Source: Chloroflexota bacterium (GTDB taxonomy: Bacteria; Chloroflexota; Limnocylindria; P2-11E). Taken from it: a stretch of 64,000 nucleotides of DNA. Location of the stretch: the NCBI GenBank assembly GCA_005883625.1, contig VBDU01000076.1, forward strand, positions 62,001 through 126,000, read 5' to 3'. How positions within the stretch are numbered: position 1 is the stretch's first letter; the number at the start of each line of letters is the position of its first letter. Below, piece after piece: positions 8,478-64,000 of this stretch. The translations under genes were made by a program, and so were the position numbers. The notes beneath the pieces are model-generated. The model searched no databases, was not told the DNA's origin, and saw only the letters and a program-made list of their open reading frames with translations.

Positions 8478-10325
8478 ATGGCGAAGACCGAGCGAAAGCC
8501 CGACCACGGCGACGACAAGCTCTACGCGCTGCGGCACTCGACCGCGCACGTCATGGCGGGTGCCGTGCTCGAGCTGTTCCCCGACGCCAAATTCGGCTTC
8601 GGCCCGCCGGTCGCGGACGGGTTCTACTACGACTTCGACCTGCCACGCGCGCTCACGGTGGAGGACCTGCCGAAGATCGAGGAGCGGATGCGCGCCACGG
8701 TCGGCCAGGATCTGGCGTTCGAGCACAAGGAGCTGAGCGTCCCCGAGGCCCTCGCGTTCTTCCGCGAGCGTCGTCAGGACTACAAGATCGATCAGATCAC
8801 CAAGCTCGACGAAGAGGTACAGGACGGCACCGTGTCCATCTACCAGCACGGCGGCTTCGTCGACCTGTGTCGGGGCCCGCACGTCGAGCGCACCGGGAAG
8901 ATCGGACCATTCCGGCTGCTTTCGGTCGCGGGCGCGTACTGGCGCGGCAACGAGCGCAATCCACAGCTGCAGCGGATCTACGGGACCGCGTGGCCGTCAC
9001 AGAAGGAGCTCGACGCGTACCTCGAGAAGCTGAAGGAGATCGAGCGGCGCGACCACCGTCGCCTGGGCGCCGACCTCGAGCTATTCCGCATCGACGACGA
9101 GCTCGGCTCGGGTCTCGTGCTCTGGCTGCCGAACCTCTCGGTCGTGCGCGAGGAGCTCGAGACGTGGTGGCGCGCGATCCATCGCGAGCACGGGTACACG
9201 CTCGTCTACACCCCGCACATCGCGCACGAGAAGATCTACCAGCGCTCGGGGCATCTCGAGAAGTACGGCGAGAACATGTATGGCCCATTGCTGCTGGAGT
9301 CGGGCGGGGGGCCGGGGGGGCAGCGCCCGCCCGACCGTTTCTGGATCAAGCCCATGAACTGCCCGGGCCATATCAAGGTGTATCAGTCGAAGGTCCACAG
9401 CTACCGCGAGCTGCCGCTCCGCATCGGTGAGCTCGGCACGGTGTACCGCTACGAACGGGGCGGCGCGCTCCACGGGATGCTGCGGGTCCGCGGCTTCACG
9501 CAGGACGACTCGCACATCTTCTGCTCGTGGGCGCAGGCCCAGGACGAGATCGGGAAGGTCTTCGACCTCGCGATGGAGTTCCTCCGCACGTTCGGGTACT
9601 CCGACCCGCGCATCTACCTCTCGACGCGGCCGGAGCGCCGCCTCGGGAGCGACGAGCTCTGGGACAAGGCCGAGGGCGCGCTGAAGGAGGCGCTCGGCGT
9701 CCGCGAGGTGCCGTACCAGGTCGACGAGGGCGGCGGCGTCTTCTACGCCCCGAAGATCGACATCAAGGTCCTCGACGCCATCGGCCGCGAGTGGCAGGGC
9801 GCGACCATCCAGATCGACCTCAACCTGCCCGAGCGGTTCGACGTGACGTTCGTGAACGCGAAGGGCGAGCGCGAGCGGGCCGTGATGATCCACCGCGTGC
9901 TCTTCGGCAGCCTCGAGCGCTTCGTCGGCGGGCTCATCGAGCATTACGCCGGCAATTTTCCGCTCTGGCTCTCGTGGGAGCAGGCCACGGTCATCCCGAT
10001 CCGCGAGACCGCGCGGCCCTACGCCGAAGAGATCGCGACGGCGCTCCGCGCGCGCGGTTTCCGCATCCACCTCGACCCGCAGCCGGGCGACCTGCGCACG
10101 CGGATCAAGGAGGCGCAGGGCCGGAAGGCGAACTACATGCTCGTCGTCGGCGACCGCGAGGCGGAGTCGCGTACCGTGTCGGTCCGCCGGCGCGGCTCGC
10201 GCGAAGAGGAGCGGGGCGTCGCGCTCGAGGCGCTCCTCGAGCGGCTCATCACGGAGCGCGAGACCAAGGCGCTACCTCCCGATTTCGGCCCGCGCGGTCC
10301 GTCGCTCGCCGACACGCTCGGGTGA
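8478..10325 (+). CDS. thrS: Threonyl-tRNA synthetase, lacking an N-terminal TGS domain
   Basis: ATG 8478; LYALRHSTAHVMA, GGFVDLCRGPHV, WIKPMNCPGHI, RVRGFTQDDSHIFC; no TGS sequence before the editing domain. Confidence 0.95.
   Translation: MAKTERKPDHGDDKLYALRHSTAHVMAGAVLELFPDAKFGFGPPVADGFYYDFDLPRALTVEDLPKIEERMRATVGQDLAFEHKELSVPEALAFFRERRQDYKIDQITKLDEEVQDGTVSIYQHGGFVDLCRGPHVERTGKIGPFRLLSVAGAYWRGNERNPQLQRIYGTAWPSQKELDAYLEKLKEIERRDHRRLGADLELFRIDDELGSGLVLWLPNLSVVREELETWWRAIHREHGYTLVYTPHIAHEKIYQRSGHLEKYGENMYGPLLLESGGGPGGQRPPDRFWIKPMNCPGHIKVYQSKVHSYRELPLRIGELGTVYRYERGGALHGMLRVRGFTQDDSHIFCSWAQAQDEIGKVFDLAMEFLRTFGYSDPRIYLSTRPERRLGSDELWDKAEGALKEALGVREVPYQVDEGGGVFYAPKIDIKVLDAIGREWQGATIQIDLNLPERFDVTFVNAKGERERAVMIHRVLFGSLERFVGGLIEHYAGNFPLWLSWEQATVIPIRETARPYAEEIATALRARGFRIHLDPQPGDLRTRIKEAQGRKANYMLVVGDREAESRTVSVRRRGSREEERGVALEALLERLITERETKALPPDFGPRGPSLADTLG
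9304..9336 (+). repeat. GC palindrome family 1, copy inside thrS
   Basis: GCGGGGGGCCGGGGGGGCAGCGCCCGCCCGACC. Confidence 0.65.
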
Positions 10326-11458
10326 CGGTCGCGGCGGAACCGGTCCTCCGCGGCTCGCGCGTCGCGCTTCGCGTCGCGACGCACGACGACGCACCGCATT
10401 TCGTCCGCTGGGCGTCGGATGCCGACTTCGCGTGGTACCAGTGGGCGCGGGACCCCGGCCGTTTTCCGGATGACGCCGCGGCGCGCGCGTTCATCGACAG
10501 CCCGCGCCTGGCGCCGCCGACCGGTCGCCTCTTCGTCATCGAGCACGCCCGCGCGCCCATCGGCTTCGCGAACTACCGCGACCTCGTGCCGAAGGCGCGC
10601 AGCGCGGAGATCGGCATCGGCATCGGCGAGAAGGCGCTGTGGAGCCAGGGCCTCGGCCGCGAGGCACTCGGCCTCCTCCTGCGCCACCTCACCGAGGACC
10701 TCGGCCTCCATCGCGTGACGCTGAGCGTCGTGAGCTACAACGATCGCGCGATCGCGTCGTACAAGGCGGCGGGGTTCGAGATCGAGGGCATCGAGCGCGA
10801 CGCCGTCATGACCGATCGCGGCACCTACGTCGACGACGTGAAGATGGCCTACCTCGCCGGCCGGGATCGCCCGGCGTTCGACCCGCGGCCGGTGACGCTC
10901 GAGGGCGCGCACGTCCGCCTCGTCCCGCTCCGTATGGAGCACGCGGAGGCCCTCTTTGCGGCGGGCGACGAAGACGACATCTGGCATCACGTGCAGCCTC
11001 GGCCGGAAGGCAGCGAGGGTTATGCACGCTATATCCGGTGGGCGCTCGATCAGCAGACCCTTGGCGCGCAGATCCCGTTCGCGGTGATCCGCGAGGCCGA
11101 CGGGGAGCTCGTCGGGACGACGCGCTACGCGCACATCGACCGCGCGAATCACACCCTCGAGATCGGATACACCTTCTACGGCAAGGGCTCGCGGCGCACC
11201 GCGACGAACACGGAATGCAAGCTGCTCCTGCTGACGCATGCGTTCGACACGCTCGGGGCGAAGCGCGTGTGGCTGCAGACGGACAAGCGCAACGAGCGCT
11301 CACAGGCGGCGATCGCGCGTCTCGGGGCGATCAAGGAGGGGGAGCTCCGGAATGAGCGCATCCTTCCCGACGGTCGCCTGCGCACGAGCGTCGTGTTCGC
11401 GGTCACGAGCGAGGACTGGCCGCCGGTGAAGGCGCGCCTTCAGGGATTCCTCCGGTGA
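10322..11458 (+). CDS. Tandem GNAT (RimJ/RimL-like) acetyltransferase
   Basis: GTG 10322 overlaps thrS TGA; two successive GNAT-like domains (IGIGEKALWSQGLGREALGLLLRHL... and LEIGYTFYGKGSRRTATNTECKLLLLTHAF...). Confidence 0.8.
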   Translation: MTVAAEPVLRGSRVALRVATHDDAPHFVRWASDADFAWYQWARDPGRFPDDAAARAFIDSPRLAPPTGRLFVIEHARAPIGFANYRDLVPKARSAEIGIGIGEKALWSQGLGREALGLLLRHLTEDLGLHRVTLSVVSYNDRAIASYKAAGFEIEGIERDAVMTDRGTYVDDVKMAYLAGRDRPAFDPRPVTLEGAHVRLVPLRMEHAEALFAAGDEDDIWHHVQPRPEGSEGYARYIRWALDQQTLGAQIPFAVIREADGELVGTTRYAHIDRANHTLEIGYTFYGKGSRRTATNTECKLLLLTHAFDTLGAKRVWLQTDKRNERSQAAIARLGAIKEGELRNERILPDGRLRTSVVFAVTSEDWPPVKARLQGFLR

Positions 11459-63422: not shown

Positions 63423-64000
63423 CCGAGGACGGCGGAGCCCCCCGACGACGGACCGTCCTGAAGTTCGGCGGTACCTCCGTCGCCTCGCCGGCCGCGCTCG
63501 AGAAGGTCGGCGAGATCGTCAAGGGAGTCGAAGGCGAGCGCGTCGTCGTCGTCTCCGCGACGGCCGGCACCACTGACGCGCTCGTCGCGGCGGCGCGCGA
63601 CGCCGAGCGCGGCGACGCCCAGAAGGCTGAGCAGCAGATCGGCGAGCTCGCCGAGGCGCACAAGAACCTCGCCGCCGACACGCTCGGCTTCTCGTCGGGC
63701 GAGGTCCTGAAGGAGGTCGGCGACCTCACGGAGCGCACCATCGCACTCCTGCAGAGCGTCGCGATCCTCCGCGAGTGCACCGCCCGCACGCGCGACGCGA
63801 TCGTCGCCTACGGGGAGCGCGTGTCCGCGCCCATCGTCGCCGCCGTCCTCGAGGCGAAGGGCGTGAAGGCCGAGGCGCTCTCCGCCGAAGGTCTCGTGAT
63901 CACCGACGACGCCTTCGGGCAGGCGAATCCGAGCCTCGAAGAGACGCGCGCCCGCGCCGCCAAGGAGCTCATCCCACGCCTCGCCATCGGGGTGACGCCC
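63419..64000 (+). CDS. lysC: Aspartate kinase (3' end outside window)
   Basis: ATGA overlap with hom; RTVLKFGGTSVASPAALEKV...VVVVSATAGTTDALVAAA; absent from ORF track because no stop in window. Confidence 0.9.
   Translation, partial: MTEDGGAPRRRTVLKFGGTSVASPAALEKVGEIVKGVEGERVVVVSATAGTTDALVAAARDAERGDAQKAEQQIGELAEAHKNLAADTLGFSSGEVLKEVGDLTERTIALLQSVAILRECTARTRDAIVAYGERVSAPIVAAVLEAKGVKAEALSAEGLVITDDAFGQANPSLEETRARAAKELIPRLAIGVTP

Follow-up and report, generated by a model that had tools for sequence, protein, structure and literature searches.

A family of short repeats, each 28 bp long and able to fold into a hairpin, is dispersed on both strands through the genome of an uncultivated Chloroflexi bacterium. 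It is probably a population of non-autonomous mobile hairpins that resemble repetitive extragenic palindromic (REP) elements, lack a REP-associated tyrosine transposase (RAYT) and behave like the Rickettsia palindromic elements (RPEs) in their in-frame spread inside genes. The stretch of DNA analysed, referred to here as the window, is 64,000 nucleotides long (positions 62001-126000 of contig C62) and belongs to a metagenome-assembled genome (MAG) of 3,186,397 bp (G000; 129 contigs, 92.5% complete) from a genus with a GC content of about 68-70%. The comparison set consisted of 11 species of this genus, G000 included, with a MAG completeness of 71-92%. The 28-mer also occurs in public contigs of the 'Chloroflexi bacterium' MAGs CF_4, CF_11, CF_86 and CF_129, two of which show copies and coordinates identical to those of G003 and G002, and sample names ending in '30cm' on Chloroflexi MAG contigs sharing the 28-mer suggest that the host comes from soil.

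The repeat unit and its copy number

The consensus of the aligned copies, CGGGGGCC-GGGGGGC-RGA-GCCCCCC-GAC, has sharp boundaries, with conservation running from the first C to the last C of GAC and variable bases outside. The left arm is doubled (CGGGGGC, CGGGGGGC, loop, GCCCCCCG, AC). A single strand folds to an 8-bp G/C stem with, in most copies, a 3-nt RGA-type loop (commonest loops GGA, AGA, GAA and AGC), and the stem is flanked by the second G-run arm (CGGGGGC) and, at its opposite end, by an unpaired tag that reads GAC, or GTC on the other strand. The base preceding GTC is variable (C in 13 of 30 copies). In a set of 100 distinct copies drawn from four genomes, the outer stem pair (positions 10 and 28) was C-G in 75, T-A in 19 and another combination in 6 (covariation p = 3e-15, a value that overstates independence because the copies are related), and the occurrence of two pairing types with few mixed forms agrees with a constraint on the hairpin. 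No stop trinucleotide is present in any of the six frames of the consensus.

A dispersed palindrome family with asymmetric flanks, on both strands and both within and between genes, had been proposed from the letters of the window alone (the original prediction), and its existence is confirmed by a profile scan and null comparisons. A profile of 28 positions, built from 30 copies, was run against 1.27 Mb of G000 (about 40% of the genome), taken as stretches mostly from contigs with exact copies, so that the density may be inflated. At a threshold of at least 14 bits there were 72 matches, compared with 1-2 in Markov-2, Markov-3, Markov-5 and reversed-sequence nulls, and at 28 bits or more there were 46 compared with none. 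Matches of at least 24 bits inside genes numbered 37, against 0-2 in codon-preserving shuffles, a null that is conservative because the inserted amino acids are kept; the excess over shuffled and codon-preserving sequence that the original prediction entailed is therefore present. G000 contains 38 exact matches to CGGGGGN3GGGGGN4GCCCCC and none to the reversed control, and about 30 of the 43 core palindromes GGGGGGCN3GCCCCCC have CGGGGGCC/CT before them and GAC after them, the flanks outside the G/C core thus being conserved genome-wide. The 3′ flank had been given as GACGG, of which GAC alone is conserved and the next two bases vary, and the term 'G/C-only' had to be dropped as both loop and tail contain A. 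A covariance model alone recovered 80 copies at E <= 0.01 across the whole G000 genome. Extrapolation from the 72 copies in 40% gives an estimate of up to about 180 copies genome-wide, the sampled contigs having been mostly preselected for exact copies, and the total is probably well over a hundred. No Rfam family reached its gathering score within the window, and the family was not found described in the open-access literature searched by sequence and topic.

A compositional accident, in which G/C runs of a 70% GC genome or runs of glycine and proline codons pass for a repeat, might be suspected from the low-complexity letters and from the weak scores at about half of the originally predicted sites. 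It is refuted by all of the nulls (Markov, reversed and codon-preserving, which rule out chance G/C runs), by the fixed flanks and by the six species of the same genus in which no copy was detected, and we give it practically no credence.

Occupied and empty sites among related species

Covariance-model searches detected 80 copies in G000, 53 in G007, 39 in G005, 28 in G002 and 9 in G003, and none in the six other species of the genus. These five carriers are scattered on a tree built from one syntenic region: G007 nests among G004, G006, G008 and G009, none of which has detected copies, while G003 and G005 are sisters (91.6% identity), and carriers and non-carriers within the genus are at 82-92% nucleotide identity. 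Other members of the family and class, and 201 sampled genomes of the phylum, matched the general architecture a few times at most, and the 28-mer pattern was unmatched in viral contigs, where a phage vector might have been seen.

Presence was lineage-specific at almost every locus compared. Extra sequence at orthologous loci, a comparison already proposed with the original prediction, was found in G000 at all eleven of the predicted sites, each being a length insertion relative to the related species compared (apart from the junctions at 27820 and 38076, where some relatives have elements of their own), and at most other sites examined. For 14 of the 20 loci examined in G005, an alignment with G003 was obtained on one side or both, and G003 had an intact copy at none of them. 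The predicted list was right in part: the copies at 27820 (-), 27998, 36667, 38076 and 41473 (-) are strong and 13178 belongs to the family with a loop of 5 nt (E 0.007), whereas the profile gives low scores or none to those listed as 9304, 34908, 43116, 51282 and 63430, about half of the eleven sites being decayed or variant copies. A further copy, at 38032 (-), had not been listed. The copies in the window and their surroundings, with genes named by Pfam and NCBIfam, are as follows.

8478-10325, +: thrS (threonyl-tRNA synthetase; Pfam)
9305..9332, +: diverged copy in thrS, 7.2 bits; net +24 bp in frame; not in G003 or G004
13177..13210, +: copy with a 5-nt loop in a T-box-like leader upstream of pheS (model R1, E 0.007); not in G003, G004 or G010
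13304-14359, +: pheS (Pfam)
27810-29501, +: TPR gene (Pfam)
27820..27847, -: strong copy where tyrS meets the TPR gene, shortly past the predicted TPR-gene start (genes by Pfam), 33.2 bits; net +24 in frame compared with seven relatives; in G007 and G002 this junction is occupied by different elements
27998..28025, +: strong copy inside the TPR gene, 36.6 bits; in frame, with a net change of +12 to +15 that varies with the alignment; nine relatives without a copy
34161-34904, +: yebC (Pfam)
34908..34940, -: degenerate GC hairpin insertion in the yebC-ruvC gap (Pfam), no profile score; not in ten relatives; ruvC of relatives starts at this place
36631..36658, -: degenerate hairpin seen in the sequence, paired in inverted orientation with the copy at 36667; relatives without it
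36667..36694, +: strong intergenic copy between a pilin-like gene and nusA, 25.7 bits; ten relatives without it
38032..38059, -: inverted partner of the copy at 38076, after nusA, 20.0 bits
38076..38103, +: strong copy in the gap from nusA to the conserved reading frame that follows, 38.2 bits; G007 and G005 carry inverted pairs of their own at this junction
40856-41704, +: nrnA-like DHH phosphoesterase gene (Pfam/NCBIfam)
41473..41500, -: strong copy in the nrnA-like gene, 33.7 bits; net +24 in frame; nine relatives without it
42477-44060, +: GT87 glycosyltransferase gene (Pfam)
43113..43145, -: degenerate copy in the GT87 gene, no profile score; net +42 in frame; eight relatives without it
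50436-52688, +: pnp (Pfam)
51283..51313, +: variant copy (GGGGGTCCGA-type arm) in pnp; net +24 in frame; four relatives without it
63430..63450, +: decayed half-copy at the homoserine dehydrogenase/amino acid kinase junction (Pfam); net +24; three relatives without it

The T-box-like leader of pheS (13003-13253), which is interrupted by its hairpin copy, scored 41.4 bits, below the Rfam gathering score of 93. The window also contains, at 43884-43982, a dispersed repeat of about 100 bp with copies in L044 (two), L104 and L032 that are 78-82% alike; its sequence is unrelated to the hairpin.

The position of copies relative to genes was determined with a purpose-made gene caller, so that gene-end positions are approximate. 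Intergenic DNA, 8% of the DNA sampled, held 30 of the 72 copies, with a further 15 no more than 60 nt from a gene 3′ end and 12 equally close to a 5′ end (each zone 6.4% of the DNA), and copies were depleted deeper inside genes, where 15 of 72, about one in five, were located. Genes with internal copies include priA, ileS, polA, mutM, dnaG, carB and an nrnA-like gene, as well as thrS and pnp, and both orientations occur, among intragenic copies too. Convergent gene ends were not enriched (4 of 30 copies, compared with 13% of intergenic length), and between co-directional genes there was no orientation preference (12 opposite, 8 same). Such placement would be expected if untargeted insertions were subject to purifying selection, and would not be expected of terminators. 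A functional RNA or DNA signal under selection (a terminator, mRNA stabiliser or protein-binding site) would account for the strong hairpin, the many copies beside gene ends and the similar G-run hairpins found between genes in Paracoccus; the lack of a convergent excess, of an orientation preference and of a T-tract, on which an intrinsic terminator was rejected, the orthologous sites and whole species without detected copies, and the many copies lying in genes on either strand make it very improbable.

At well-anchored coding sites every net length change, measured between conserved anchors, was a multiple of three. In addition to the sites listed above, these changes were +72 in priA (three hairpins in a row), +33 in ileS, +33 in carB (G004), +39 in mutM and -3 in polA. 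Sites with poorly conserved flanks gave other values and were left uncounted either way (dnaG, dnaX, the 5′ end of ileS, and carB compared with G003). In a non-coding control, the interval from the pilin-like gene to nusA, the change was a multiple of three in 2 of 10 relatives. Internal copies on the same strand as their gene read in frame as GGRGAEPPD in 6 of 8 cases. Several host genes act in replication or repair (priA, polA, mutM, dnaG and dnaX, with ruvC affected at its 5′ end), a tendency that, with few genes, is suggestive only; intragenic REPs of other families show the same tendency (PMC3733652).

Inverted pairs, with their CCCCCG sides facing, occur after nusA in G000, G007 and G005 and elsewhere in G007; there are several, and they make up a minority of copies. 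The G007 pair folds as a single extended hairpin (z -4.0); for the decayed pair of G000, folding was no better than in shuffled sequence. Among 59 copies, extra hairpins flanked the GAC end in 7 and the opposite end in 1 (background 0.6%). A second variant of the palindrome has longer stems (GGGGGTCCTC-core-GGAC or GGGGGTTCGA-core-TCGACC) and is represented by ten copies in the 1.27 Mb, several of them inside genes:

L039:2304, second-variant copy
L049:4925, second-variant copy
L075:13342, second-variant copy
L084:17610, second-variant copy
L092:11441, second-variant copy
L094:19139, second-variant copy
L104:10742, second-variant copy
L107:9667, second-variant copy
L109:10989, second-variant copy
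L118:12455, second-variant copy

Downstream of an element copy in G005 (contig C135, L124) there is a dispersed repeat of about 80 bp (CTCAATCTCCGGCCTTCGGCCAGGAGACACGCCCC...), found at more than 10 places in G003 and at some in G000. Two identical copies 352 bp apart with common flanks in L121 (G005:C81:17170-17850) look like a tandem duplication or an assembly artefact.

How the copies may have spread

The proposed mobile population would depend on a trans-acting activity, not recognisable as a Y1/RAYT protein or reverse transcriptase, that copies the hairpin into many sites, probably as single-stranded DNA at replication. Most insertions in genes would be purged; survivors would be those lying between genes, those at gene ends and those that enter loops and linkers in frame, and survival in frame would be helped because the consensus lacks stop codons in all six frames. 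Copies would afterwards decay through point mutation. A search for a RAYT gene had been proposed with the original prediction, and its result was negative: no Y1_Tnp/RAYT was found in any of the 11 genus genomes, five of them carriers and all incomplete MAGs, in a search whose control was positive in 5 of 14 known genomes. Reverse transcriptase (RVT_1) was likewise found in 0 of the 11, with positive controls, and a retron, a diversity-generating retroelement or a group II intron was therefore rejected as the driver. We infer recent copying by an activity of a kind other than a detectable Y1 or RVT_1. An ordinary REP/REPIN population, whose RAYT was missed, has been lost or lies in unassembled DNA, would fit the REP-like size, hairpin, one-sided tag and inverted pairs, and 71-92% completeness leaves room for a missing gene; the uniformly negative Y1_Tnp search, set beside its positive control, and the lack of a GTAG tag render this explanation decidedly unlikely.

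Several observations weigh against a simple mobile-element account. No mobiliser was found. Junctions are unclean, short stretches beside the copies often differing between species, and therefore no target-site duplication can be claimed; by eye, none was constant in the G005/G003 and G000 alignments, as it would be, beside terminal inverted repeats, in a MITE of a DDE transposon, although the relatives are too diverged to define junctions. At L049:4564-4591 (G000 contig C71) the element replaces native sequence without a change in length. It is present there in G000 and the non-sister G005 (L138), whereas in G003, G004 and G008 its place is taken by equally long native coding sequence (LLGxRGxKPxDxGE), in which 17-19 of 28 bases match the element; the host protein (815 aa) received no Pfam name. 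This site is not explained by simple insertion unless an ancestral copy has decayed in the relatives; either that happened or native sequence was overwritten. At dnaG, where G000 and G005 carry the element at one place, the score of the G003 segment exceeds the 99th percentile of background, so that decay of an ancestral copy is favoured at this site.

These equal-length sites bring in templated overwriting, in which, as DNA is replicated or repaired, template switching or gene conversion would act on short GC-rich targets that already resemble the element in part, replacing sequence as well as adding it. The replacement at L049:4564, several G005 copies at which G003 has different sequence of similar length, the polA copy (net -3) and the one-sided extra hairpins all point towards it. 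Clear additions of 24-72 bp at thrS, pnp, the nrnA-like gene, the GT87 gene, priA, ileS and carB point away from it, and sites of equal length may be decayed ancestral copies, as the dnaG segment of G003 illustrates; we consider overwriting a minor possibility as the general explanation, and non-autonomous mobile hairpins remain the reading we prefer.

Relation to known repeat families

REP/BIME elements and RPEs had been named as precedents in the original prediction, and both were judged right. The GTAG REP/REPIN elements with a RAYT share with the Chloroflexi repeat their size (imperfect palindromes of 20-40 bp in high copy), hairpin, one-sided tag and inverted pairs; they differ in that the Chloroflexi tag is GAC/GTC and no RAYT/Y1 gene was found, and because the tag and RAYT tests fail the new family is set apart from them. 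The CGTC REPs (Di Nocera et al. 2013, PMC3733652) resemble it in having an unpaired end tag ((N)GTC in the present family), an 8-bp stem, dimers, positions near gene ends and intragenic copies in replication/repair genes, and in lacking a dedicated transposase, as was apparently the case for CGTC repeats in the 2013 survey (PMC3733652). Their description differs in sequence, and on this ground the two are separated: CGTC REPs have a stem of 8-9 bp with complementary A/T pairs in the first and second position, a loop of 4-5 nt and a CCA-like tail (PMC3733652), whereas the Chloroflexi repeat has a stem that is all G/C save for the outer T-A variant, in most copies a 3-nt loop, and a GGCCCCCG tail. 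The terminal CGTC (or TGTC, CCTC) of the CGTC REPs is matched in part, GTC being conserved and the fourth tag base unfixed.

Outside the phylum, one Roseovarius MAG contains an exact 28-bp match (L185:2057-2084), and a related architecture with two G-runs was found in 16 of 40 genomes of the Roseovarius group (Rhodobacterales). The two-G-run hairpins of Roseovarius relatives and Paracoccus share the CGGGGG-N3-GGGGGC-N3-GCCCCC architecture; their second G-run usually has a length of 5, the 5′ flank is frequently of the AAATA type (which often precedes the hairpins in L189-L194) and the inspected copies look intergenic, in which they differ from the Chloroflexi family, and a common origin is not claimed. 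The likeness between Chloroflexi and the Roseovarius group may come from shared ancestry, horizontal spread or convergence. A broader proposal, rather unlikely in our view, is that these hairpins form a self-propagating class in high-GC bacteria of several phyla (G5-N3-G5/6-C-N3-G-C5/6), which would spread without a dedicated transposase by templated copying or overwriting in replication and repair and could convert native coding sequence, as at L049:4564.

RAYT-less REPs are an open problem, and a compact family within a single small genus makes the question of the mobiliser testable, together with a second, how proteins absorb selfish DNA. The family offers a contrast of carriers and non-carriers within a genus, copies that recur at the same positions, covariation that preserves the structure and in-frame entry into essential proteins (priA, ileS, thrS, pnp), and would document the remodelling of conserved proteins by selfish palindromes outside Rickettsia. 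On the best reading it is a new RAYT-less, REP-like family that behaves as RPEs and transposase-less REPs do. RPE-4 and RPE-6 have been placed in the CGTC class (PMC3733652). Like the Chloroflexi repeat, RPEs are short palindromes within and between genes, with in-frame intragenic copies, a copy number that varies among the species of a genus and no dedicated transposase known; the likeness is one of behaviour, no relation in sequence being claimed, and the Chloroflexi repeat is distinguished as a G/C-rich 28-mer with a doubled G-run arm and a 3-nt loop.

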